NCBI RefSeq assembly: GCF_037126435.1 | Contig: NZ_CP147020.1 | Coordinates: 1,263,001-1,327,000, forward strand | Reading direction: 5' to 3' | From: Bernardetia sp. ABR2-2B | Lineage (GTDB): Bacteria > Bacteroidota > Bacteroidia > Cytophagales > Bernardetiaceae | Length of the DNA: 64,000 nt | Shown here: piece after piece, positions 7,569 to 39,361 of the stretch | Layout of the letters: each line of letters opens with the position of its first letter | Position numbering within the stretch: the first letter of the stretch is position 1 | Notes under the pieces: model-generated | Database searches by the model: none | Told to the model about the DNA's origin: nothing | Seen by the model: the letters and a program-made list of their open reading frames with translations, nothing else | Position numbers and translations under genes: made by a program

Positions 7569-8870
7569 ATGAACATCATTTTTTTTGATTCTTCTTCTCT
7601 AAGAACTCATTTATTGCCTTTCACTTTCACTCGTCCTGTGGCTGACCTGCGTGTCGGAATTCTGACAATTAAAGAGAAATTCGAAACATATTTTAATCAA
7701 TATGTAAAAAATTCGACAGAAAATACAAATCATTCAGAAATTGCAAGTCATACTTTTTCATTTCTGACACAAGATTATTTACAAGAAAAATTTCCTATTC
7801 ATTTCGAAGAAAAAGAAACTGTAAATCTATATATCAATGGTGCAGTTTTGCCAAATTTAGAGTTTTTCGAAAAACTAGAGATGCTTCCATTAGAAACGGC
7901 TATTTTTTCAGATACAAAAGATGGAAGTGAGCTGATTGCCTTCAAAACCTTTACACAATTCAAGAGTGTAGAAAAGTTTTATGATTTTGCTTTGAAAGTG
8001 GCTAAACAAAAGACAGAAAAAATAAGTATTCGGTTTTTGGAAAGAACATGGGATATTTTCCGAGCAAACAAACAAGAAATTGAAAAAGATTTTGATTTGA
8101 TTACAACAGGACGTAAAAGTGAAGCAATTACAGACAAATACACCGTTTTATATAATGAAGAACGTATTTTTGTAGAAGAAGGAGTAACTATAAGAGCTGC
8201 TATTTTGAACGCAGAAAAAGGCTCAATTTATATTGGGAAAAATGCAAGTATCGAAGAAGGAGCAACCATTCGTGGTTCGTTTGCGCTTGGAGAAGGTTCG
8301 GTAATCAATACGGGTTCAAATATGCGAGGCGATACAACTATCGGAAAATTCTGTAAAGTAGGTGGAGAAGTAAGCAACTGTGTGTTTTTTGGGTACTCAA
8401 ATAAAGGACACGATGGGTTCTTAGGAAATGCAGTTATTGGCGAATGGTGTAATTTAGGTGCAGCTACTAACTGCTCAAACCTCAAAAATAATTATGGAAC
8501 AGTTCGTATTTGGAACTATGCAGAAGAAAATTATGAAAAAACAGAACTTCAGTTTTGTGGACTTTTAATGGGTGACCATAGTAAATCTGGAATTTGTACC
8601 ATGTTCAATACAGCAACCGTTGTAGGAACTGGTGCAAATGTTTTTGGAGAAGGCTTTCCACCAAAATTTATTCCTTCTTTTGCATGGGGAAACGGCAACC
8701 ACCAAACCAAATTTGTAACGACACATATTGATGCACTTTTCAAGACAGCAGAGCGAATGATGGTGCGTAGAGACGTAGAGTTTACAGAAGTAGAAAGAAA
8801 ATTGCTAACCAAGGTATTTGAAGAAACTGATAATTATAGATTTTGGGAGTCTAATCCGATGTTTAGTTGA
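7569..8870 (+). CDS. GlmU-like sugar-1-phosphate nucleotidyl/acetyltransferase
   Basis: 433 residues. The N-terminus (NIIFFDSSSLRTHLLPFTFTRPV, then ADLRVGILTIKEK) is characteristic of the alternative bacterial GlmU-like family (TIGR03991 as I recall), proposed to make UDP-GlcNAc from glucosamine-1-phosphate in bacteria lacking classical GlmU. The C-terminal half is a left-handed beta-helix built of hexapeptides (IYIGKNASIEEGATIRG, GSVINTGSNMRGDTTIGKFCKVGGEV), as in acyltransferases. UDP-GlcNAc feeds peptidoglycan, so this complements murC in the same window. The exact substrate is inferred from the family. An upstream in-frame Met at 7512 is less likely because it precedes the candidate promoter element. 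Confidence 0.8.
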   Translation: MNIIFFDSSSLRTHLLPFTFTRPVADLRVGILTIKEKFETYFNQYVKNSTENTNHSEIASHTFSFLTQDYLQEKFPIHFEEKETVNLYINGAVLPNLEFFEKLEMLPLETAIFSDTKDGSELIAFKTFTQFKSVEKFYDFALKVAKQKTEKISIRFLERTWDIFRANKQEIEKDFDLITTGRKSEAITDKYTVLYNEERIFVEEGVTIRAAILNAEKGSIYIGKNASIEEGATIRGSFALGEGSVINTGSNMRGDTTIGKFCKVGGEVSNCVFFGYSNKGHDGFLGNAVIGEWCNLGAATNCSNLKNNYGTVRIWNYAEENYEKTELQFCGLLMGDHSKSGICTMFNTATVVGTGANVFGEGFPPKFIPSFAWGNGNHQTKFVTTHIDALFKTAERMMVRRDVEFTEVERKLLTKVFEETDNYRFWESNPMFS

Positions 8871-10714: not shown

Positions 10715-11065
10715 CTTATATTTTTAAGTCAATAAATAGTTTTTTTAAAAAAAGTTCAAACAGCTTTGTGATTTTAGCACTAACCAAGTAAAACTTCCTA
10801 AAAAAACAAAAATCCTAGACTCTATCAGACAAATAAACAAAATATTTTTTAGAGTTCTTTAAATTGTTCTCTCTTCAAAAAAATGTATATTTGTGAGAAG
10901 CTAATAGAAATTTTATTATAATAGTCTCAAGTAAACCCAAATTATAACGATACGATACATCTCTACTAAAAAACAATTGTTTTTATTTATTTTTTTAGTG
11001 TTTTCTTTGTTAATTCTTTGAACCAAAAATTAATAAAGAAAAAAATATATGATAAAACCTCCTTT
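10715..11065. other. Intergenic region upstream of porX
   Basis: Very AT-rich gap between divergent genes. It contains the porX promoter (10864-10893), giving a 5' leader of about 165 bases, and an AAACAGCTTT string near 10755 that recurs in other gaps. No further gene seen. Confidence 0.7.
10864..10893 (+). promoter_or_regulatory. Promoter of porX
   Basis: TTG at 10864-10866 and TATATTTG at 10886-10893 with a 19-base spacer, an exact match to the Bacteroidota TTG-N17-23-TAnnTTTG pattern. Confidence 0.7.
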
Positions 11066-12640
11066 ATGCAACGATATTCCATTCTTTGGGCAGATGATGA
11101 AATTGAATTTCTCAAACCTCATATTTTATTTTTAGAGAAAAAAGATTACGACGTAAAAGCTGTAAATAGTGGCGCAGATGCCCTTGAAGCTGTTGAAGAA
11201 CAAAATTTTGATATTGTATTTTTAGATGAAAATATGCCAGGAATGTCTGGTTTAGAAACTCTTACAGCCATAAAAACTATTCGCCCTTCTTTACCTGTTA
11301 TTATGATAACTAAAAGTGAAGAAGAGCATATTATGGAAGATGCCATCGGTGCAAAAATTGCCGATTATTTGATAAAGCCTGTTAATCCAAACCAGATTTT
11401 GCTTTCTATCAAAAAGATTTTAGATCAAAAAAGATTAGTTACAGAGAAAACAAATCTAAGTTATCAGCAAGATTTTAGAAATCTTTCCATGACTTTTCAA
11501 GATGATTTGGATTTTGATGAGTGGGTGGAAGCCTATAAGAAACTCATTTATTGGGAACTTGAAATTGAAGATACCGAAAATCAAAGTATGCAAGAGATTT
11601 TGGAGTCTCAAAAAGAAGAAGCCAATATTAGTTTTGCCAAATTTATCCAAAATAATTATGAGTATTGGCTAAATGATGCAGGAGATGATGAGTATCCAAT
11701 GATGTCGCACGATATTATGGGAGAGTGGGTTTTTCCACTTTTGGAAGATAAAAAACTAAATGAAGAGCGTCCTTTATTCTTTATTTTGATAGATAATTTG
11801 CGTTACGACCAGTGGAAAGTTGTCGAATCACTTTTGGCAGAATATTTTACAGTAAAAGAAGAGAAAGTATATTCTTCTATCTTGCCAACTACTACGGCAT
11901 ATGCTCGTAATGCTATTTTCTCAGGGCTTTTACCTTCCGAAATGGCAGAAGACCATCCAGACCTTTGGGTAGATGATCAAGAAGAGGGTGGAAAAAATAA
12001 CTTTGAAGATGAGTTTTTACGCAGACAAATGAAAGAATTTGGTTTTGGAGATACAAAAATGACCTACAATAAGATTCTTCGTAACCATCAAGGAAAACAA
12101 CTTGTAGAAAATTTTAATACGCTTCAACAAAACGAACTCAATGTCATTGTTTATAATTTTGTAGATATGCTCTCTCATGCTCGTACTGATACGGCTGTTG
12201 TTCGTGAACTTGCACCTGATGAAGCTGCTTATCGTTCAGTAACAAAATCGTGGTTTTTACACTCTCCTTTATGGGATATGTTGAAGAAAATTGCAGAAGT
12301 GAATAGTCGTTTGATTATCACAACTGACCACGGAACAATTCGTACGAAACGTCCTTATAAAATTATAGGAGACCGAAACACCAATACAAATTTGCGTTAT
12401 AAACAAGGAAAAAATCTAAACTATAACCCTAAAAACGTATTAGTAGCCAAAAACCCTGCAAAATTCTTTCTACCTCGTCAGAATGTTTCTACAAGTTTTG
12501 TATTTACGACAGAAGACTACTTCTTTGCATATCCAAATAATTATAATCATTACGTAAAATACTATAAAGATACATTTCAGCATGGAGGTATTTCATTAGA
12601 AGAAATGATAATTCCTTTTATAGAATTAGAAGCAAAATAG
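11066..12640 (+). CDS. porX: PorX, T9SS response regulator with PglZ/phosphatase domain
   Basis: 524 residues. The N-terminal receiver domain (ILWADDEIEFLKPHI, FDIVFLDENMPGMSG with the phospho-acceptor Asp, KPVNPNQI with the conserved Lys) is followed by a helical linker and a C-terminal PglZ/alkaline-phosphatase-type domain (FFILIDNLRYDQWKVVE, YSSILPTTTAYARNAIFSG, VDMLSHARTD, LIITTDHGTIR), whose Asp, Thr and His residues fit a metal-bound phosphodiesterase site. This architecture is PorX, which with the kinase PorY controls type IX secretion and gliding genes in Bacteroidota. PorY is not in the window, and orphan placement is usual. The Met at 11066 starts just before the receiver strand; an earlier in-frame Met at 11018 adds an atypical Lys-rich tail. 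Confidence 0.9.
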   Translation: MQRYSILWADDEIEFLKPHILFLEKKDYDVKAVNSGADALEAVEEQNFDIVFLDENMPGMSGLETLTAIKTIRPSLPVIMITKSEEEHIMEDAIGAKIADYLIKPVNPNQILLSIKKILDQKRLVTEKTNLSYQQDFRNLSMTFQDDLDFDEWVEAYKKLIYWELEIEDTENQSMQEILESQKEEANISFAKFIQNNYEYWLNDAGDDEYPMMSHDIMGEWVFPLLEDKKLNEERPLFFILIDNLRYDQWKVVESLLAEYFTVKEEKVYSSILPTTTAYARNAIFSGLLPSEMAEDHPDLWVDDQEEGGKNNFEDEFLRRQMKEFGFGDTKMTYNKILRNHQGKQLVENFNTLQQNELNVIVYNFVDMLSHARTDTAVVRELAPDEAAYRSVTKSWFLHSPLWDMLKKIAEVNSRLIITTDHGTIRTKRPYKIIGDRNTNTNLRYKQGKNLNYNPKNVLVAKNPAKFFLPRQNVSTSFVFTTEDYFFAYPNNYNHYVKYYKDTFQHGGISLEEMIIPFIELEAK

Positions 12641-12671
12641 TGTAGCAAGTATAAATAGAATAATTTGCATA

Positions 12672-12710
12672 AAAAAAGTCAGATAATCATTAAGATTGTC
12701 TGACTTTTTT
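12672..12710. terminator. Bidirectional terminator between porX and tRNA-Gly
   Basis: Sixteen-base arms (12672-12687 and 12695-12710, one G-U pair) flanked by A and T runs. It serves the two convergent transcripts, porX (plus) and tRNA-Gly (minus). Confidence 0.85.
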
Positions 12711-12776
12711 AATTTGTATCGCTTTTTTACGAATGACTTAAAAGAATTACTTCTCCATGCCTAGTCCGTAAAGTTG

Positions 12777-12849
12777 AGCGAAAGACGAGGCTCGAACTCG
12801 CGACCTCAACCTTGGCAAGGTTGCGCTCTACCAACTGAGCTACTTTCGC
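12777..12849 (-). tRNA. tRNA-Gly (GCC)
   Basis: Complete cloverleaf of 73 bases including the discriminator. Acceptor arms GCGAAAG and CTTTCGC, anticodon loop TTGCCAA giving anticodon GCC, and a standard TTCGAGC T-loop. The discriminator is U, as usual for bacterial tRNA-Gly. The CCA end is not encoded. Confidence 0.97.
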
Positions 12850-12933
12850 TTTTTTTGACTTTAGGTAAGCTAATATTTATATTTTACCTCTTTATTTAAG
12901 ATGTAAATCACATACCTTGCGTCTTTGTGATGA

Positions 12934-13705: not shown

Positions 13706-14212
13706 TTAAAAAATTAATCTATAGGTTTCTAACTGAATTTGGTAATCAGTATTAAAATCAGTTTTCAAAAATTGAAATCCTAATTTTTTAAGCAAAGTTT
13801 GTGAAGTGATATTTCCTTCCATTATTAAACCAAAAATTTGTTGATGTTTCAGTTCATTTTTGACAAAATCAATGACTTTTTCACCTAATTCGGTAGCGAA
13901 TCCTTTTCCTTGAAAGTCTTTTGAGATACGAAATCCAATATGAAAAGTAGCATCAGAACCCAAATAAGGCATAACTCCCATTGTTCCGATATATTTTTCA
14001 GTTTTCTTTTCTCTAACTACCCAGTAGTAAAGATGTTGATTCTCAGAAAGTATTCTTTTGTTCTCTAAAAAATTGGTGTACTCACTATTAGATAAATTTT
14101 GAAGATGTTTTATGTATTTTACAGCATTTTCTTCTCTAAAAGAGGCAATAATTTCTTTAAAATCTTTTTTCTGAATTAAATTTAATTCTGTTCTTTCTGT
14201 GGTAAGTTTCAT
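13706..14212 (-). CDS. GNAT acetyltransferase, RimJ/RimL-like
   Basis: 168 residues, cytoplasmic. The RimJ/L-type pattern is clear: TTERTELNLIQKKD at the start, then YIGTMGVMPY, HIGFRISKDFQGKGFATELGEKVI with the acetyl-CoA loop Q-G-K-G-x-A, and NITSQTLLKKLGF near the end. Such enzymes transfer acetyl from acetyl-CoA to protein N-termini or small amines; the substrate is unknown. The start is set at 14212 because the longer frame (Met at 14251) runs into the hairpin terminator of the upstream arsenic operon. Confidence 0.8.
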   Translation of the reverse strand: MKLTTERTELNLIQKKDFKEIIASFREENAVKYIKHLQNLSNSEYTNFLENKRILSENQHLYYWVVREKKTEKYIGTMGVMPYLGSDATFHIGFRISKDFQGKGFATELGEKVIDFVKNELKHQQIFGLIMEGNITSQTLLKKLGFQFLKTDFNTDYQIQLETYRLIF

Positions 14213-14251
14213 TATTTGAAATTGATTGTGGTAGTAAAAATATAATTTCAT

Positions 14252-14289
14252 AAAAAAGCATTTTGCTTTCTAAAAAACAAAATGCTTTT
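14252..14289 (-). terminator. Terminator of the arsenic operon
   Basis: Arms AAAAGCATTTTG (14254-14265) and CAAAATGCTTTT (14278-14289); on the minus strand the hairpin ends in a T run. It lies 23 bases past the end of the phosphatase-like gene. Confidence 0.8.
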
Positions 14290-14311
14290 CTAATAATGCT
14301 AAAATAAAATA

Positions 14312-15058
14312 TTACTCTCTATTCAATTTGGTTTTGACATAATCCATTATAAAGAAAAACTCTGTTCCTATTTGTTTGCACCTTTCATCATAAGTTTGGG
14401 CTTCTTTGTCTGTTCCATCAGATATTTTTGGGTCTTTAAATGGAATAGCAAAACGAGCATCTGCTCCCATAACTAAAGGACAGTTTTTGTCAGCATCACT
14501 ACAAACCATAATAGCAGCAAAATCTTTTTGAGGATTCTGTTTGTGTGAATATTTCTTTGAAAACATAAATAGCTCTTTTTCAAACTTTTCTCCTACTGAC
14601 ATCAAATAAATAGGATTTTTCCCTTCTTTATCAACAGAACCTACTTTTTCTAACTTTATCCCTGTTCTTTGCAGTGCAGCAACGGCTCTAGGATTAAAAG
14701 CAGTCGATTCTGTTCCTCCAGAAAAAGTAGTTATTCCTTCAATATTATAATAATAGGCTGCAATTTGTAACCAAGCCTGTCCAAAATGACTTCTACGTGA
14801 ATTATGGGTACAGATTATGGTCATATCAATTTGTTTCTTATCCATTTTTTTATTGATAATATAATCTCCAATTTTCTTTAGTTTTATTTTCCGTTCTTCA
14901 TCAATAGTTTCAAAATTAGAAGCTAAGTTTTTAGAGTAATTTTGAAGTTTAGGATACAACTTATTTTTTTCCACTTTAGATAAAGAAGTAAAAGATGAGA
15001 AATTAAAAATCAAGAAAGGAATAATGCATAAAGATAGAAATACATTTGAAGTTTTCAT
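14312..15058 (-). CDS. Exported ArsC/low-molecular-weight phosphatase-like protein
   Basis: 248 residues. The core is the low-molecular-weight tyrosine phosphatase/arsenate reductase fold: the P-loop CTHNSRRS (C-x5-R-S) near residue 83, FSGGTESTAFNPRAVAAL, and VCSDADKNCP, which supplies extra Cys residues as in thioredoxin-coupled ArsC. In that class arsenate is reduced to arsenite through Cys relays. Unusually, the protein begins with a signal-peptide-like segment (MKTSNVFLSLCIIPFLIF), suggesting periplasmic location, away from the cytoplasmic arsenate pool. It is the last gene of an arsR-arsM operon. Arsenate reduction is inferred from context; a phosphatase role remains possible. Confidence 0.7.
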   Translation of the reverse strand: MKTSNVFLSLCIIPFLIFNFSSFTSLSKVEKNKLYPKLQNYSKNLASNFETIDEERKIKLKKIGDYIINKKMDKKQIDMTIICTHNSRRSHFGQAWLQIAAYYYNIEGITTFSGGTESTAFNPRAVAALQRTGIKLEKVGSVDKEGKNPIYLMSVGEKFEKELFMFSKKYSHKQNPQKDFAAIMVCSDADKNCPLVMGADARFAIPFKDPKISDGTDKEAQTYDERCKQIGTEFFFIMDYVKTKLNRE

Positions 15059-15144
15059 TTTTGTAATGTTTAATGAAAAGTGATTAAGGTAAATATTTAA
15101 AGCTTTGAAAAATGAAATCCATAACTAAAGTTATGGGTAAAAAA

Positions 15145-16068
15145 TTAACAACAGCCACTACTTGGACTACACACACTTTTTTGTTCTTGAATAATTTCTT
15201 TTTTTATAGACTCAGAAGAAGGATTTTTTTGAGCAAAAACAGTAATACTAAAAACACCTGTTTGTCCATTTCTGAATTCTCTTATTTCGCTTTCAGATAG
15301 ATATTTTTGAAGAATATCATCAGGGATAAAAATAGCTTTCTCTTTTTGTAGGGTAATATTTTCAAAACCAACTTCTTTGATAAAATTGAGATAGTCTTCT
15401 TTCTGAATCGCTCCAGAAACACAACCTGCATACATTTCTGCATCTTCTTGTAAAGCTTTTGGAAGATTACCCAAAAGCACAATATCTGAAATGCTAAAAT
15501 GTCCATCATCTTTCAAAGTTCTGTACATTTCTTTAAAAACAGCTTTTTTATTGGGTACAAGATTCAGCACACAATTACTCACAATTACATCAACAGAATT
15601 ATCAGAAATAGGCATTGTTTCGATATCTCCTTCTCTAAACTCCACGTTATTATAACCTAACTTATCAGCATTCTGACGAGCTTTTTTGAGCATTGTAGGA
15701 GAAAAATCTATTCCGATTACTTTTCCTGTTTCGCCTGTTTCTGCTCGTGCCACAAAACAGTCGTTTCCTGCACCAGAACCTAAATCAAGAACTGTATCGC
15801 CTTTTGTAATTTGAGCAAATTGTGTAGGAAGTCCACAACCTAAGCCTAAATCTGCATCAGAATTATAACCATTTAGATTATCATATTTTTCTGACATAAT
15901 ATTGTAAACTTCTGTTGAAGAGTTTGTAGTTCCACAGCATGAAGAAGCATTGAGAGCTTTATCTTGTAGAGCTACCTTTTCATATTTCTGACGAACCATA
16001 TTTTTGATTTCTTGTTCTGTTTGAGATTCGTTTTGTAATGTGTTTGAAGTTTGAATTGAATTTTTCAT
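15145..16068 (-). CDS. arsM: Arsenite S-adenosylmethionine methyltransferase
   Basis: 307 residues. It uses SAM to methylate As(III) to methylated, partly volatile arsenicals. Seen: the SAM-binding motif VLDLGSGAGNDCFVA, then VIGIDFSPTML, GDIETMPI, and the three Cys contexts typical of ArsM that bind As(III): GLGCGLP, SNCVLNLV and YAGCVSG. Extra Cys pairs occur near the N-terminus (SSCCGTT) and at the C-terminus (CSPSSGCC), which may add metalloid binding. The Met at 16068 is preferred over 16089. It lies between arsR (76 bases upstream) and the phosphatase-like gene (86 bases downstream). Confidence 0.9.
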   Translation of the reverse strand: MKNSIQTSNTLQNESQTEQEIKNMVRQKYEKVALQDKALNASSCCGTTNSSTEVYNIMSEKYDNLNGYNSDADLGLGCGLPTQFAQITKGDTVLDLGSGAGNDCFVARAETGETGKVIGIDFSPTMLKKARQNADKLGYNNVEFREGDIETMPISDNSVDVIVSNCVLNLVPNKKAVFKEMYRTLKDDGHFSISDIVLLGNLPKALQEDAEMYAGCVSGAIQKEDYLNFIKEVGFENITLQKEKAIFIPDDILQKYLSESEIREFRNGQTGVFSITVFAQKNPSSESIKKEIIQEQKSVCSPSSGCC

Positions 16069-16144
16069 TTGTTTATTGCAATTTAACAATTAATAGTAAT
16101 TTAAAAAAAGAAAGCTTACGCTAGGTTTAATCTAAGGTTTTGTC

Positions 16145-16483
16145 TTAACAGCACGAATTAGAATCAATTTTTGAAGTAAAATCAGTAAAAAAAGTATTGA
16201 AAAGAGTTTGTATGTCTTTCCAATTTTGAGGATTGATACAATAACAAACGCTTGTTCCTTCGATAGTTCCTTGAATGATTCCTACTTTTTTGAGTTCTCT
16301 AAGATGTTGTGAGATAGTGGGTTGTGCCAATCCAATTTCGTTTACCAAATCTCCTCCAATACATGTATTTACTTTTATCAAGTGTTGCAAAATTGCTATT
16401 CGTGCAGGATGTCCCAATACTTTTGCAAGGTTTGCAAGTTCGTTTTGTTTTTCAGTAAAAATATCAGATTTGGTAAGTCCCAT
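16145..16483 (-). CDS. arsR: ArsR-family metalloid-responsive repressor
   Basis: 112 residues, winged helix-turn-helix. Seen: LAKVLGHPARIAILQHLIK, then the recognition region GLAQPTISQHLRELKKVGII and the wing EGTSVCYCIN. Cys residues at NTCIGG, SVCYC and the terminal SNSCC could bind As(III), releasing DNA. The classical ELCVCDL motif is not present, so the sensing site is a variant. It leads the arsR-arsM-phosphatase operon and most likely represses it; As(III) binding is inferred from Cys content and context. Confidence 0.85.
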   Translation of the reverse strand: MGLTKSDIFTEKQNELANLAKVLGHPARIAILQHLIKVNTCIGGDLVNEIGLAQPTISQHLRELKKVGIIQGTIEGTSVCYCINPQNWKDIQTLFNTFFTDFTSKIDSNSCC

Positions 16484-16592
16484 TTTGAGTAAAATTGATT
16501 TTTGATTAATCCTTATATTGCAATATTACGATAAATAAATTTATTAGTTCAATCGTATTAGTTTATTTAACTTTTTTTAAGTATAAATAATG

Positions 16593-16946
16593 TTATACAG
16601 ATAATTTTGGTTTGAGGTAAACTGAAATTTCCCAAAACATAGCCGAAAGAACAATCAGAACAAAAGCATTATTTCCTAGAGAAAATTGCGTTGAGCCAAA
16701 ATGTAAACAACCAAACTGTTGTACATTATCTACATAATACACTTGAAAAGCAGCTAGTAAAGTTGTAAAGCTGCTTATTACAAAAAAGTACATCTTTCCT
16801 TTTTTGAAATCTTCAAGTATTCGTAAATTAAAGAGGAGAGGCAAGAAAATAAATAATGCTCCTGCTGAAATATAAACAAGTAGAGAAACTAAAAAGCCAT
16901 TCAAAAAATAGCTTTTTAGACGAGAATTGATAGTATTTTTCTTCAT
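16593..16946 (-). CDS. Small membrane protein
   Basis: 117 residues, not recognised. Seen: four hydrophobic segments (about residues 14-37, 50-68, 86-100 and a shorter one between), a basic N-terminus and a Lys-containing C-terminus, so an inner-membrane protein. It lies on the same strand upstream of arsR, with 109 bases between that include AT-rich promoter-like sequence, so it is probably a separate unit. It follows pyrH by 86 bases. Confidence 0.55.
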   Translation of the reverse strand: MKKNTINSRLKSYFLNGFLVSLLVYISAGALFIFLPLLFNLRILEDFKKGKMYFFVISSFTTLLAAFQVYYVDNVQQFGCLHFGSTQFSLGNNAFVLIVLSAMFWEISVYLKPKLSV

Positions 16947-17032
16947 TTAGTCTAAATTTTCTTAAAAAAAACGAATTACAAAAAATAGTATTTTCCGTAA
17001 TCCGTAATTTTTAATTCGTAATTGAAAAGTTT

Positions 17033-17770
17033 CTAATATTCTGTTATCAATGTTCCGATTTCGTCTCCGTGTACTACTTTCAATAAATTACCTTCTTCAT
17101 TCATATCAAAAACAATAATTGGTAAATTATTTTCTCTACAAAGCGTAAATGCTGTCATATCCATAATATTTAAGCCTTTATTATAAACCTCTTGGAAAGA
17201 AAGGTTTGAATAACGAACAGCCTCTGGATTTTTCTCTGGGTCTTCCGAATAAACACCATCTACTCGTGTTCCCTTCAAAACTACATCAGCACCAATTTCG
17301 ATAGCACGAAGCGAAGCAGCAGAATCAGTTGTGAAATAAGGGCTTCCCAAACCTGCCACAAAAATAACTACACGTCCTTTTTCTAAGTGACGAATCGCTC
17401 GACGACGTACATAAGGCTCACAAATTTGTTCCATTTTAATACCTGAAAGCAAACGAGTATAAACACCAACTTGCTCAAGAGCAGACTGCAATGCCATTCC
17501 GTTGATAGAAGTAGCAAGCATTCCCATATAATCTCCTTGAACTCTATCAATACCTATTTTGGGAGATTGCATTCCTCTAAAAATATTTCCTCCTCCAATT
17601 ACGATAGCTACCTGTAAGCCTTCATCAACAGCTTTTTTTACTTCTAATGCGTATTGTTCTAATCTTTCAGCATCGATTCCGAACTGCTGTTTTCCCATAA
17701 GAGCCTCACCACTTAGTTTTAATAAAATGCGACGATAGCGATAATTTGAAGCGTTATTTGAGTTATACAT
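17033..17770 (-). CDS. pyrH: UMP kinase
   Basis: 245 residues, cytoplasmic. It phosphorylates UMP to UDP with ATP in pyrimidine nucleotide synthesis and is normally a UTP-inhibited hexamer. Seen: [13 protein letters not shown] at the start, [48 protein letters not shown] and [12 protein letters not shown], the standard amino-acid-kinase-fold pattern of bacterial PyrH. Full length. The usual downstream partner frr is absent here. The 440-base upstream region holds small ORFs and a rho-independent terminator 120 bases before the start, suggesting control by transcription attenuation. Confidence 0.95.
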
Positions 17771-30004: not shown

Positions 30005-30838
30005 TTAGTCTGTGTTTTCTATTTGGAGATAATTTTTTCTAGCTAAAATTTTCCCTGTATAATTTCTTTCTATACTTTTTGCAATTCCTATTTCTTTTTT
30101 GTCTTTGGTATAATAATGTATTTCTGTAAATTGTGCAGCCCAAGCAAGGGCAAAAAGAAAGGGTTTGGTGTTTTCATAGGATTTAGAAGCTAGTTCTTGT
30201 TTTATAATTTCTCCGTTCTTCAAATGAAGATTCAAACATAAATCTGTTTGTTTGAAAGAAAAATCTAAGTTTTTTTTCTTGATATATTCTATTTTTTGTA
30301 TTTCGTAATAGGAATAAAATTTATCGTTTTGTAATTCAATTCCTGTTTCTAATACTTTTACAGTATTTTTATAAACTCTTAAAAATTTTCTAATCAACTT
30401 ACTTTCTTCTAATTTTTCAATAACAGTAAATAAAACAATACCAGACATAGGAACAGCTAAAAAAACTAAACCTCCAATCCAATTATTTATATTTATACTC
30501 AATGTAAACAGAACAACTGGAATGATAAAAAGTAAGTACAAAAAATTAATATTACTATTTCCAATTTCAAAAATTAATTTGTCATCACTATTCTTTCCTC
30601 TTACTTTCTTTTTAGCTCTTAAAGTTGGAATAGGAGTAGGGACAAATCCCAATGTTTCTCTCTGATTGCAATGCTGTGTGTCCATATACTCCCAGCTTTC
30701 CTTCAAAAAAACAGACTGACAAGCACTACAAAAAATAACCTCATCATTTGATTTTATTGTATCGCCTGTAACGGAATCTTGTCTTCCTATGATGTGGGAG
30801 TGATTCTTTGGGTTTAATTTGTGGGTGTTGTAGTTCAT
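30005..30838 (-). CDS. RING/U-box-like zinc-finger membrane protein (paralogue 1)
   Basis: 277 residues, no named family known to me. Seen in order: a head of about 60 residues with D21-x2-T-G-D, DEVIFC37-x2-C40, W49 and H56-C57, reading like a prokaryotic RING/U-box treble clef whose first Cys pair is replaced by D and T/G; two membrane helices (about residues 95-145); and a soluble tail (VKVLETGIELQNDKFYSYYEIQKIEYI) that looks PH-like. The array order on the minus strand is paralogue 3, 2, 1; this is the last gene, 9 bases after paralogue 2. A signalling or membrane quality-control role is possible but unproven. Confidence 0.65.
   Translation of the reverse strand: MNYNTHKLNPKNHSHIIGRQDSVTGDTIKSNDEVIFCSACQSVFLKESWEYMDTQHCNQRETLGFVPTPIPTLRAKKKVRGKNSDDKLIFEIGNSNINFLYLLFIIPVVLFTLSININNWIGGLVFLAVPMSGIVLFTVIEKLEESKLIRKFLRVYKNTVKVLETGIELQNDKFYSYYEIQKIEYIKKKNLDFSFKQTDLCLNLHLKNGEIIKQELASKSYENTKPFLFALAWAAQFTEIHYYTKDKKEIGIAKSIERNYTGKILARKNYLQIENTD
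30650..30838 (-). repeat. Conserved 5' module, copy 1
   Basis: The first 190 or so bases of this gene are nearly identical to those at 31480-31675 and 32300-32493, including most synonymous sites, while the rest of each gene is strongly diverged. Confidence 0.7.
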
Positions 30839-30847
30839 GTATCTTTT

Positions 30848-31675
30848 TTAATAAAAAGGTATTTTATCAGTTAAAATTATATTTCCTTCGTATTTTCTTA
30901 TCTCTTCTTTCAAAAACTGATGTTCTTTTACATCCTCCAAATAAAAAATGACTTCTGTAAACTTTGAAGCTTTCATTAAACTATCCAAAAACTCAACATT
31001 ATGAGAATAGTTGATTTTTAAATCTAAATCGATTTCTTTTAAGTTATTGTGTAAATAAATTCGAATTTTATTAGAGGTGTTTGAATTAGATAAAAATGGA
31101 ATAAATTTCTTATTTGCTTTATAAATTATGCTAGTGATTTCTTTCCATTTATAAACCTGACCAAATAAAACCAATTTATCTTCATAAATCTGAATCATTT
31201 TTGTAGTAGTATTCTGCTTTTTTAGCTTTACAATTATGACAGACATTGCAACTACAAATCCTACTTCTAAGATACTTAAAATAGTTATTATAATTCTTAA
31301 CTCTTTTGTTCCTATTTTTAAATTGAATAACTCAGATATACAAAATCCAAAAAAAATAAGACTAAAAATGATAAGGTAAGATAATATGAATAAAGTTTTA
31401 CGCACCTTTCTATGTTTAGCAATCTCAAAAAGTAAAGCATTTCTTTTTCTAGCCTTAATTATTTCGTCTTGAACAGGAACAAACTTAAGCGTTTCACTCT
31501 GATTGCAATGTTCTTTGTTCATATACTCCCAACTTTCCTTCAAAAAAACAGACTGACAAGCACTACAAAAAACAACCTCATCATTTGATTTTATTGTATC
31601 GCCTGTAACGGAATCTTGTCTTCCTATTATGTGGGAGTGATTTTGAGAGTTTAATTTGTGGGTGTTGTAGTTCAT
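30848..31675 (-). CDS. RING/U-box-like zinc-finger membrane protein (paralogue 2)
   Basis: 275 residues with the same plan as its neighbours. The head differs from paralogue 1 by only a few residues (C37-x2-C40, W49, H56-C57 kept), followed by a Lys-rich linker, two membrane helices (about residues 88-145) and a soluble tail with LVLFGQVYKWKEITSIIYK, resembling the start of a PH-like sheet. Its ATG overlaps the stop of paralogue 3 by one base (TAATG arrangement), implying translational coupling. The tail shares little identity with paralogue 1, so the head and the rest have different histories or constraints. Confidence 0.65.
   Translation of the reverse strand: MNYNTHKLNSQNHSHIIGRQDSVTGDTIKSNDEVVFCSACQSVFLKESWEYMNKEHCNQSETLKFVPVQDEIIKARKRNALLFEIAKHRKVRKTLFILSYLIIFSLIFFGFCISELFNLKIGTKELRIIITILSILEVGFVVAMSVIIVKLKKQNTTTKMIQIYEDKLVLFGQVYKWKEITSIIYKANKKFIPFLSNSNTSNKIRIYLHNNLKEIDLDLKINYSHNVEFLDSLMKASKFTEVIFYLEDVKEHQFLKEEIRKYEGNIILTDKIPFY
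31480..31675 (-). repeat. Conserved 5' module, copy 2
   Basis: Near-identical DNA to copies 1 and 3 over the coding start of the gene, compatible with recent duplication or gene conversion. Confidence 0.7.
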
Positions 31676-32493
31676 TAGTTATACTTAATTAAGAGTGATT
31701 TTGTCAAAACTACGTTTCCTGTAGATTCTTTTTTCTTCTCTTCTATAAATTTATATTCCTTCTCATCATTAGTACAAAAAGTAACTTTCGTAAGCTCAGA
31801 AACCTGTATTAAATTTTCTAGAAAGTCTATATTATCAGGATAACGGTTTGTTGATTCTAGTGAAAAGTGTCGCTCTAAGTCATTTACATGGATACGAATA
31901 TTATTAATATAATCTCTTTGATAAGGATTTCCTTTAAGGTTGCTCTCTGATTTATAAACTACATATTCTACTTCCGTCCATTTGTATCTCGTTTTATAGA
32001 GTGCAAACCCATTTTTTTGTAACTCAAGCCACGCATTTTTCTTCATTGACTTTCTCTGTATGTTTAACAAAAATATCAAAGTGCCAAAAAACATTTCAAA
32101 CCCTAGCATAACTAGCACCAAATCTAAATCCCAATTTTTTAAAAGCTCATTAACCATAAAACTACCAAAGAAAACACACAAGCAAGAAAGCATAAACATT
32201 ATACCTATAATATTAAGTGTTTGCTCGGCTGGAAATGGAATGCGAAGAAAGGAATCCTCTTTCTTTTTAGCCTTAATTTCTTTTGCTTGAACAGGAACAA
32301 ACCCCAATGTTTCTCTCTGATTGCAATGCTGTGTGTCCATATACTTCCAGCTTTCCACCAAAAAAACAGACTGACAAGCACTACAAAAAACAACTTCATC
32401 ATTTGCTTTTATTGTATCGCCTGTAATAGAATCTTGCCTTCCTATGATGTGGGAGTGATTCTTTGGGTTTAATTTGTGGCTGTTGTAGTTCAT
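31675..32493 (-). CDS. RING/U-box-like zinc-finger membrane protein (paralogue 3)
   Basis: 272 residues, first gene of the three-gene array. Head as in the others (D21, T24-G25-D26, C37-x2-C40, W49, H56-C57), two membrane helices (about residues 90-145), and the PH-like tail FALYKTRYKWTEVEYVVYK. The start at 32493 is chosen because the paralogues begin with the same MNYN; an in-frame Met 39 bases upstream lacks support. A fourth, more distant paralogue lies at 37705-38607, beyond the TonB receptor and thyA. Confidence 0.65.
   Translation of the reverse strand: MNYNSHKLNPKNHSHIIGRQDSITGDTIKANDEVVFCSACQSVFLVESWKYMDTQHCNQRETLGFVPVQAKEIKAKKKEDSFLRIPFPAEQTLNIIGIMFMLSCLCVFFGSFMVNELLKNWDLDLVLVMLGFEMFFGTLIFLLNIQRKSMKKNAWLELQKNGFALYKTRYKWTEVEYVVYKSESNLKGNPYQRDYINNIRIHVNDLERHFSLESTNRYPDNIDFLENLIQVSELTKVTFCTNDEKEYKFIEEKKKESTGNVVLTKSLLIKYN
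32300..32493 (-). repeat. Conserved 5' module, copy 3
   Basis: Third near-identical copy, with slightly more differences (for example AATTTGTGGC for AATTTGTGGG near the start). Confidence 0.7.
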
Positions 32494-32633
32494 TGAAAGA
32501 AAAATAATGAGATTTTTGAAGTTTGAAATCAAATATAGTTTGAATATTTGTTTTCACGTTAAAATCAAATAAAAGATTTCTAAATCCTGTTTTTTATAGC
32601 GAAATTTGCAAAAAACGCATAAAATACCAGCAA

Positions 32634-37704: not shown

Positions 37705-38607
37705 CTATCTACCTGAAATAAGAAAATTAGAATTTCCTTCTGCAATCATTTTTTTTACATAATAAAGGGTATTTTCCTCACCACTTTCTATACGTACAGG
37801 TACATTATGAGAGATAGATAAGGTATTAAGGGCAGAAATAAGAGTGCTAGGATTATTAAAAAGATTACTATGTATCTTGAATTTTAATTTTTTTGGTCTT
37901 CCTTGTTCTTCATAATATACTTGACAATAACTATTGGATGAAAGATTATCTCTTTCATGAAATATAATTTCTTCTATGTCTTTTGCTAATAGTACACTCT
38001 CTCTGAGTCCATATTTACTAGCAAAACCAATCTCCTTTTTAGTGATATAAAATGTATTGTTTTTGAAATGTTGATAGGTAGATTCTACTTTATTTCCATA
38101 GTACCAGTCATGTAACCAAATAATTCCTTCTAATATAAAAGGAATAGAAATTAATGGAAAAAAAGAACTATTTGATTTTATAACAACCAATATATAAAAA
38201 GGTATAAAAGCTATAATTTTACCAAATCTCATAAAAGGATTGTGCAAGAAGTTTTGATAAGGAGATATATTCTGAGATTTCTTGAGCCAAGGTTCTTTTT
38301 TTACTTGTCTTGGGATATTTTTTTGAGATTTTCCTTTTTTAGGTAGAGAAGTATAGAATAATATCTCATCTTCTAATTTTAAAAATATTGCTTTCTCAAT
38401 AGGAAAATCTATCAACGTTTCAGATTGTTCACAATGCCTATTTCCTAGATACTCCCATGTATCACTTAAAAAAACTGATTTACAATCTGCACAGAAAACT
38501 ACCTCATCACCTTCTGAAATAGAATCACCTGTAATGGGATCTTTTCGGTTTTGAGCTAGGAAGTTATGGTGTTTTTGTGAAGTGGAATCTATTCTATGAA
38601 TGTGCAT
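37705..38607 (-). CDS. RING/U-box-like zinc-finger membrane protein (paralogue 4)
   Basis: 300 residues, a distant member of the 30-32 kb array. The head keeps D23-P-I-T-G-D, DEVVFC39-x2-C42, W51 and H58-C59, then has a longer Lys-rich linker, two membrane helices (about residues 120-155) and a soluble PH-like tail (NNTFYITKKEIGFASKYGL, SYCQVYYEEQGRPKKLKFK). The invariance of D, the Cys pair, W and H-C between distant copies argues for zinc binding and a maintained fold. A 140-base palindromic element lies immediately upstream, and a zinc-ribbon protein gene follows it at 38828. Confidence 0.65.
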   Translation of the reverse strand: MHIHRIDSTSQKHHNFLAQNRKDPITGDSISEGDEVVFCADCKSVFLSDTWEYLGNRHCEQSETLIDFPIEKAIFLKLEDEILFYTSLPKKGKSQKNIPRQVKKEPWLKKSQNISPYQNFLHNPFMRFGKIIAFIPFYILVVIKSNSSFFPLISIPFILEGIIWLHDWYYGNKVESTYQHFKNNTFYITKKEIGFASKYGLRESVLLAKDIEEIIFHERDNLSSNSYCQVYYEEQGRPKKLKFKIHSNLFNNPSTLISALNTLSISHNVPVRIESGEENTLYYVKKMIAEGNSNFLISGR

Positions 38608-38827: not shown

Positions 38828-39361
38828 CTAATCAAAATTCCATTCTGAATCTAAATCATTTCCACATACTTGACATTCAAAAATATGTTCTTTAATTAGG
38901 TTGATAGTTTGACAGTTTGTGCAAAATCTAAAATCAAAGTCGACTGTGAAATAATTTGGATATTCTATTTCTAGTTTGCTTAAAACTTCATTTACAAATT
39001 TCCAAGATTCAGGTTTTGGGCAGTAACCTGTTGATTGATTACTTATTTCGCTTATTGAAATTTTATCTTTCCCCTCAATTAGAAATGAAATTTCCCCTGC
39101 TGAAATAACATTTTTTCCACCTGCACATTGCACGTGTTCAGAATGCCTATCATTAATTAAAAGTTCATGATTTTCATTAATGATAAATGTTGCAATTACA
39201 CTATCGTTGATTAATTCTTGAGCTGTTTTTTTAATCCAATTTAGTATATCTTCACTTTTTGAAATTTTATAGCCAGTAAATTTTAAATCAACAGAATCAA
39301 ATACTTCTTGAGAACCAACATAAGAATAAAGCTGAATATTTTCTTTTTTGTTGTTATTCAT
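38828..39361 (-). CDS. Protein with C-terminal zinc ribbon
   Basis: 177 residues, function unknown. Seen: an N-terminal mixed alpha/beta part without a signal peptide (LYSYVGSQEVFDSVDLKFTGY, WIKKTAQELINDSVIATFIIN) and a C-terminal four-Cys ribbon, FCTNCQTINLIKEHIFECQVCG (C-x2-C, 15 residues, C-x2-C). The ribbon probably binds zinc and may contact nucleic acid or protein. Its ATG lies eight bases inside the end of the upstream gene at 39354-40526, so the two are translationally coupled. Confidence 0.6.
   Translation of the reverse strand: MNNNKKENIQLYSYVGSQEVFDSVDLKFTGYKISKSEDILNWIKKTAQELINDSVIATFIINENHELLINDRHSEHVQCAGGKNVISAGEISFLIEGKDKISISEISNQSTGYCPKPESWKFVNEVLSKLEIEYPNYFTVDFDFRFCTNCQTINLIKEHIFECQVCGNDLDSEWNFD

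Follow-up and report, generated by a model that had tools for sequence, protein, structure and literature searches.

A dispersed family of membrane proteins with a RING-like head in Bernardetia and its possible link to an endogenous ubiquitin-like pathway

Prokaryotic RING fingers were reportedly described by Burroughs, Iyer and Aravind in 2011, who are said to have predicted RING-type ligases (E3) in operons for ubiquitin-like proteins (Ubl). Here we describe a family of membrane proteins with a RING-like head in Bernardetia sp. ABR2-2B, first seen as four genes in a 64,000-nucleotide stretch of contig NZ_CP147020.1 (positions 1,263,001 to 1,327,000, referred to below as the window), three of them side by side at 30005-32493 and the fourth at 37705-38607. 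Complete "tri-ligase" prokaryotic Ubl systems have been described and tied to conflict systems, and like Bernardetia they unite a Ubl, an activating enzyme (E1), a conjugating enzyme (E2), a JAB peptidase and a RING-type E3 in one bacterium; in the parts of that source available they are operons with one RING-type component, whereas the Bernardetia core is split (Ubl-E2-JAB1, E1 and JAB2) and is accompanied by about 50 heads (PMC7159879). The characterised Bil and Bub operons also use a Ubl, an E1 and an E2 together with a JAB-type or other specific peptidase inside the bacterium, and no E3 is named in the available portions of their descriptions. According to the same portions BilA has two Ubl domains, BilD two adenylation domains and BilB a CEHH motif (PMC11354881, PMC12687455), in contrast to the single 84-residue Ubl, single ThiF domain and HPN...C E2 of Bernardetia, which with its genes at separate places does not have a BilABCD system. 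Large bacterial families of ubiquitination-related proteins are also found in the Chlamydiae, where the expanded F-box and BTB families were proposed to act on the host cell as secreted effectors, unlike Bernardetia, which has an E1, E2 and Ubl of its own (PMC4209131).

The window genes probably (we would put it at about 60%) encode E3-type adaptors for a single Ubl pathway endogenous to the bacterium, as members of a lineage-specific family of half-zinc RING-like proteins anchored in the membrane. RING-type E3s beside prokaryotic Ubl operons are already known, and what is new here is the large dispersed RING-like repertoire. Among the literature matches listed, taken by title and opening of the abstract, no expanded E3 family was found in a bacterium with its own Ubl, a weak negative given thin coverage of subscription papers, and the nearest case was the F-box/BTB expansion of the Chlamydiae (PMC4209131).

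The RING-like head and its predicted zinc site

The four window genes, given below by their positions in the window and all on the minus strand, share a head that the first-pass annotation had put at about 60 residues. Residues 1-67 aligned nearly without gaps, with D21, T24, G25, D26, C37, C40, W49, H56 and C57 invariant, and a hydropathy scan found the two expected membrane helices behind the head in all four open reading frames. Gene 1 (30005-30838, 277 residues) carries its head, with D21..T24, C37-x2-C40, W49 and H56-C57, at 30638-30838 (residues 1-67) and its two predicted helices at 30422-30550 (residues 97-139), and the count of positive charges suggests that its head and tail are both cytoplasmic. 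Gene 2 (30848-31675, 275 residues; predicted structure with a predicted local distance difference test score, pLDDT, of 88.2) has its head at 31475-31675 (residues 1-67) and a cytoplasmic tail at 30851-31213 (residues 155-275) with a predicted PH-like fold. Gene 3 (31675-32493, 272 residues from the ATG at 32493, an alternative TTG start at 32532 being likewise open) has its head at 32293-32493 (residues 1-67), and its stop shares one base with the start of gene 2. Gene 4 (37705-38607, 300 residues) has its head at 38401-38607 (residues 1-69). The PH domain 3dcx ranked first in the structure search with the full model of gene 2 (probability 0.97, E 0.037), the only tail for which the PH fold was examined by structure, and the tails of genes 1 and 3 are related to it by BLASTP. 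The tail of gene 4 belongs to a different sequence cluster with 7 members genome-wide. Of the PH-like tails proposed for the four genes, that of gene 2 is supported by the predicted structure and those of genes 1 and 3 are likely from their sequence.

The conservation of the head was counted over 127 strings, to which 231 matches from many loci had been collapsed (4 of the strings are cut copies of others), with gapped rows dropped column by column; neither the first Kordia head nor the degenerate heads of genomes G064, G158 and G231 are among them. The conserved pattern was R-x-D-x-[IV]-T-G-[DE]...V-x-[FI]-C-x2-C-x-S-x-F-x3-[ST]-W-x-Y...H-C-x-Q-x2-T-L-x3-P. Both C37 and C40 were kept in 125 of 125 strings, W49 in 126 of 126, C57 in 125 of 126 and H56 in 124 of 126, so the proposed Cys and His positions are conserved in the homologues counted; the exceptions at the last pair were one HY and two CC (Kordia and G571). 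D21 and T24 were present in 124 of 124, as was I or V at position 23, which lies just before the second replaced ligand and presumably corresponds to the place where RINGs carry an E2-contact residue.

A treble-clef reading of the head had been proposed and is supported by predicted models. With the head-only model of gene 2 (pLDDT 92.2) the top 15 Foldseek matches were all structures of RING E3 domains (template modelling scores 0.43-0.55 on the query, probabilities 0.41-0.90, E 0.17-0.81), including RNF38, RMR1, RNF165/Ark2C and RNF13, several of them in complex with E2 and ubiquitin. With the full model of gene 2 the RNF38 RING appeared at rank 27 (probability 0.84) and unrelated proteins were intermixed in the match list. 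The assignment to the broad RING-type treble clef thus draws on the agreement among matches, not on any single score, and the E-values are weak. The likeness to these eukaryotic E3s lies in the predicted fold, and the matches include membrane E3s (RMR1 and the PA-TM-RING protein RNF13); the difference is that the Bernardetia head would have one zinc site where RING and U-box proteins have two or none, and that the sequences are very remote.

The closest family by sequence was Prok-RING_1 (PF14446), to which 35 of the 51 family members found in the genome (see below) were matched at E 0.05, all below the Pfam cut-off (best E 0.00012; 22.4 bits against 29.1). The canonical Prok-RING of G180 (46.6 bits), which stands beside a Ubl and an E1, gave an ungapped alignment of 24 residues with the head in the region of C-x2-C and W (BLASTP 2e-4; hhalign 4.5e-4 with a probability of only 33%), consistent with the same treble-clef line. 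On this alignment one zinc site has lost its ligands, with D, T, F/L and S in the places of C1, C2, H and C, and the C-x2-C hairpin and the C-terminal pair of the other are kept. Pairs 1 and 3 are therefore replaced together, which as read from the alignment is a coherent loss of one whole zinc site with the other retained, and the two-zinc cross-brace of Prok-RING_1 is predicted to be absent. The replacement of the first Cys pair by Asp and Thr/Gly, noted in the first-pass annotation, was correct for D and T and incomplete, as the third pair is replaced as well. The comparison with U-boxes made there was rejected because the ligands C37, C40, H56 and C57 are conserved and one zinc site is kept; the heads would be naturally occurring half-zinc RINGs, intermediate between RING and U-box. 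Bernardetia further differs from the single Prok-RING_1 inside an operon in having 12-56 dispersed matches per genome, with varied membrane tails.

Expansion in the genome and co-occurrence with Ubl genes

A profile built from the four window genes gave 51 strong matches in the 5.4 Mb genome (E 3.1e-124 to 3.7e-22) and two weak ones (0.055 and 0.154), and 51 open frames of 139 to 476 residues contained a complete head, all 51 with C-x2-C, W and HC; a head-only search returned 52 matches. A chance origin of the shared head is thereby excluded. Two of the members are short (139 and 155 residues) and may be truncated, and one profile match runs through a stop, so not every member need be a working gene. 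The members are clustered: at a gap of <3 kb the 51 formed 29 clusters, ten of which hold 2 to 5 genes, and the 22 neighbouring pairs closer than 3 kb compare with 1.9 on average and never more than 7 in 2000 random placements. No family name was obtained above any cut-off in Pfam, NCBIfam or PADLOC. The tails are diverse and include PH-like, RDD and TPR regions and others without a match: BLASTP clustering gave seven groups of related sequence and nine singletons, and Pfam at E 0.05 identified RDD in 5 of the 51, weak FERM_C/PH-like matches in 5 (best E 0.0039), DUF2207_C in 3 and TPR in 1. Among the 33 clear two-helix members 31 had more K/R before the first helix and after the second than between them, which suggests that head and tail are both cytoplasmic. 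Next upstream of gene 4 in the window is a 177-residue protein (38828-39361, minus strand) with C-terminal zinc-ribbon-like C-x2-C pairs, for which matches to NRDD and DZR were sub-threshold only.

A link to ubiquitin-like systems had been guessed from the window. It was recovered at genome scale, the Bernardetia genome's own matches to E1, E2, Ubl and JAB all lying outside the window. Of the 11 genomes of the family, 8 carried heads (52, 23, 17, 40, 56, 41, 12 and 8 matches; 12-56 per genome at the level of the genus), and a survey of these genomes for ubiquitin-like, E2-like and peptidase genes returned exactly the same eight. Each of them, and none of the others, had one UQ_con E2 (over the Pfam cut-off in 3 of the 11), one Ubl and one close E1 (51-58% identity to the Kordia E1), with two JAB genes in seven of them and one in G401. 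The three head-less genomes gave no E2, Ubl or JAB match, and one of them has a distant ThiF relative (26%). The heads are therefore found in the same cell as an E1, E2 and Ubl that are presumably their cognate partners. The nearness of heads to E1 or E2 in genomes of the genus (G396, G397, G398 and G400) was discarded as evidence, as neighbours within 10 kb are not unusual when 5.3 Mb hold about 30 head places (a by-eye estimate).

The Bernardetia E1/E2/Ubl/JAB set looks intact, judging by its conserved residues. JAB1, a DinB-like gene (L146:9115-9681, minus strand, between JAB1 and E2), E2 and Ubl lie together at C1:193,481-195,769, and E1 and JAB2 are elsewhere in the genome. The E1 has 410 residues and one ThiF domain, its closest PDB sequences being Uba1 (1e-25) and ThiF; its glycine-rich loop and C194 were invariant in 10 E1s, and by position C194 is likely to be the catalytic Cys. 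The closest PDB sequences of the E2 were Rad6-type E2s (E 2.4e-6), and H89-P90-N91 and C99 were invariant in 12 sequences, as were E69, H144, H146, S155 and D158 of the JAB in 9. The Ubl is a single domain that belongs barely to the YukD family (28 bits against a cut-off of 27), and its profile reached most single-ubiquitin PDB entries at E 0.003-0.006 up to their last residues (among the best 60 of 277 matches); it ends in ATDAG followed by K, R or a short extension. Identity to six other genomes of the genus was 95-100% for the Ubl, 93% for the E1 (three genomes) and 89-94% for the E2. High conservation is not unique to the Ubl, a 729-residue neighbour being at 98% identity.

Heads in other lineages and competing explanations

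Beyond the family, heads were found in few genomes and in most of these close to Ubl genes. With the Bernardetia E1 as query in 395 genomes of the phylum, 948 bits were obtained for itself, 203-206 bits for G064, G158 and G180, and at most 106 bits thereafter; matches at E 1e-20 occurred in 91 of the 395, itself and the three 200-bit genomes included, and on the score gap only the look-alikes at or below 106 bits were treated as probable MoeB/ThiF-like proteins. Heads at E 0.001 were present in 4 of the 395 genomes, namely Bernardetia sp. ABR2-2B, G064, G158 and G231. In G064 and G158 a five-gene run of E1-Ubl-E2-JAB-head protein was observed with the head about 5 kb from the E1. The protein at the end of the run (L188:14346-16727 and L189:14324-16669) carries in G064 a VWA domain, a degenerate head and an FHA domain according to Pfam, applied to the L188 copy only, and the head search. 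Just upstream of the G064 run are a PAAR-motif protein (L188:7178-7693) and a 1766-residue eCIS_core protein (L188:1159-6456), both on the minus strand. In G180 a Ubl, an E1 and the canonical Prok-RING are neighbours.

A second group of heads came from Kordia and from family f8, the family of G021, which is taken to be that of Kordia by inference. In Kordia (locus L050) two heads flank an E1 (ThiF, E 1.2e-52), an E2 (UQ_con, 2.7e-8), three JAB genes and Ubl genes at 10886-11161 and 12359-12901, one of which contains two Ubl-like units and terminates in ATSGC. Among the 397 genomes sampled from f8, heads at E 1e-4 were confined to G571, which has two, and an E1 at E 1e-35 likewise; this E1 lies between the two heads, which are about 6 kb apart. 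One of these is fused to a TIR_2 domain (E 1.8e-7; L200:6547-7287, plus strand), 1.4 kb upstream of a run of E1-Ubl-E2-JAB-JAB-head, and nearby are a further TIR_2 protein (51-527), a WYL regulator (13899-14906) and an N6-methylase with HATPase (14975-17479). The single TIR-head gene of G571 is matched in Kordia by two plus-strand frames that overlap in different reading frames, one TIR-like (L050:7489-7926, so named by likeness to the G571 protein only) and one with a head and no start (7899-8573).

Several observations weigh against an E3-type role in the pathway. Every E-value of the head in Foldseek was at least 0.17, and Prok-RING_1 scored above its cut-off in none of the 51 members and in 0 of the 11 family genomes. 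The co-occurrence within the family reflects one clade and not eight independent events, and in the Bernardetia genome the nearest heads are about 17 kb from E2 and Ubl and about 16 kb from E1. The C-x2-C is degenerate in the heads of G064 and G158, the head-like segment of G231 has no Cys at all and that genome no E1 match, no E2 or JAB match to the seed sequences was found in the 20 kb examined in G180, and the first Kordia head, which follows the TIR-like frame, lacks an in-frame start codon of its own and may belong to a damaged gene. The head searches in the phylum and in f8 scored at most 14 candidates per genome, and misses are possible. At the E2 position that we take to be equivalent to Phe62 of UbcH5-type E2s stands Q, I or R, which leaves a classical RING interface uncertain. 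Finally, one tandem array (4897k) was little homogenised, with synonymous divergence (dS) between its heads of 0.58-1.14. As a separate observation, the head-like stretch of the 662-residue frame in G231 (L075:61-2046, minus strand) keeps DPFTG...ETW and may represent a zinc-free end state of the domain.

The strongest alternative, which we regard as unlikely, is that the heads belong to the Ubl pathway as Ubl- or E2-binding receptors or as preferred substrates, a Ubl on the tail controlling for instance a transporter-like RDD or a PH protein. The same co-occurrence data fit such a role, as does the retention of just one zinc site, and the TIR-head fusion and the VWA...FHA protein with its degenerate head would be effectors recruited or regulated by the system. 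RING E3 domains nevertheless top the fold search, the canonical Prok-RING adjoins Ubl and E1 in G180, and E3s typically far outnumber E1 and E2, as the heads do.

It is considerably less probable that the heads are merely structural or dimerisation modules of a membrane-signalling family with which Ubl genes were co-inherited by chance in a few lineages. According to a passage citing Burroughs et al. 2011, the B-box and other prokaryotic treble clefs contribute to the folding and stability of membrane proteins outside the ubiquitin system, and the weak Foldseek E-values and the Cys-less stretch of G231 in a genome with no E1 would agree with this. Presence and absence, however, agree in all 11 family genomes and in the 397 genomes of f8, and heads are linked to Ubl genes in G064, G158, G571 and Kordia. 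Stand-alone membrane signalling was demoted once the co-occurrence with E1, E2, Ubl and JAB had been seen.

Divergence of heads and tails and the proposed pathway

In six tandem arrays heads and tails differed strongly in their divergence. Of 35 head pairs 24 had a dS of 0.12-0.6, nine were higher and two were saturated, against a dS above 1 in 34 of the 35 tail pairs, whose amino-acid identity was 20-41% and for which dS near 25% identity is unreliable beyond "saturated"; the remaining tail pair was 67% identical with a dS of 0.70. The gene 1 head had a dS of 0.15 to that of gene 3, their tails being saturated, and of 0.30 to its other array neighbour, compared with 0.83 to its orthologue in L031, the tail of which is 68% identical. 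In the orthologue pair L053 and L046 the tail was 95% identical (dS 0.155) and the head 85% (dS 0.682). This pattern would be the trace expected from gene conversion of heads or from transfer of tails between heads. Orthologues were compared over 31 gene references from other genomes (at least 2 genes counted twice), which gave 19 reciprocal-best pairs. Of these, 6 had a higher dS in the head than in the tail and 2 a lower amino-acid identity in the head, so that most pairs show no head exchange.

Both this divergence (in the arrays and in the L053/L046 pair) and the TIR, WYL and N6-methylase/HATPase genes around the G571 cluster would suit a constant-head, variable-tail conflict family of immunity proteins or phage sensors whose heads would connect these proteins with the Ubl pathway and whose tails would face the adversary, a reading that we consider very improbable given that no known toxin or immunity domain appeared among the Pfam families of the 51 members at E 0.05 (first 25 of 40) and that two TIR-less heads match no PADLOC model.

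If the heads are E3-type adaptors, the pathway would begin with the JAB peptidase trimming the YukD/ubiquitin-like Ubl after its Gly (...ATDAG|K), after which the single E1 would adenylate the Ubl and load it on its Cys and the single E2 (HPN, Cys99) would take it over. The cytoplasmic heads of about 50 membrane proteins would then dock the charged E2 and direct the Ubl to targets chosen by the tail of the head protein or by its place in the membrane, and the JAB could reverse the mark. Selection and, in several arrays, gene conversion would keep the heads alike as the tails diversify, which would widen the set of targets or signals served by one common E2. E3 activity, binding of E2, the trimming of the Ubl, the targets and the purpose of the heads are what we infer from these data. 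The fuller picture is put forward more tentatively: a eukaryote-style hierarchy in which 12-56 membrane-bound RING-like E3s all draw on a single E1, a single E2 and a single, highly conserved Ubl, their heads made uniform by gene conversion and their sensor or substrate tails diversifying, possibly as an innate immune repertoire. Conflict or defence is suggested by the TIR-head gene of G571 with its WYL, N6-methylase and HATPase neighbours, and by the VWA...FHA protein in G064; defence, on the strength of the TIR-head fusion, is our best guess for the purpose.

Bacterial Ubl pathways have mostly been described as compact operons, and the present family bears on the question of a broad E3 layer for the choice of targets. 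If the proposed role is true, the family would be, to our knowledge, the first example of a large set of E3s that a bacterium employs internally with a Ubl of its own. Expansion of E3s would then not be only a eukaryotic invention, and the family would be a bacterial counterpart of the large eukaryotic E3 families. The genus has named species, such as Bernardetia litoralis, which is in culture. Homogenised heads with diversified tails could mark an immune repertoire, and with about 50 E3-like heads drawing on a single E1, E2 and Ubl, loss of the E1 should silence the whole layer.

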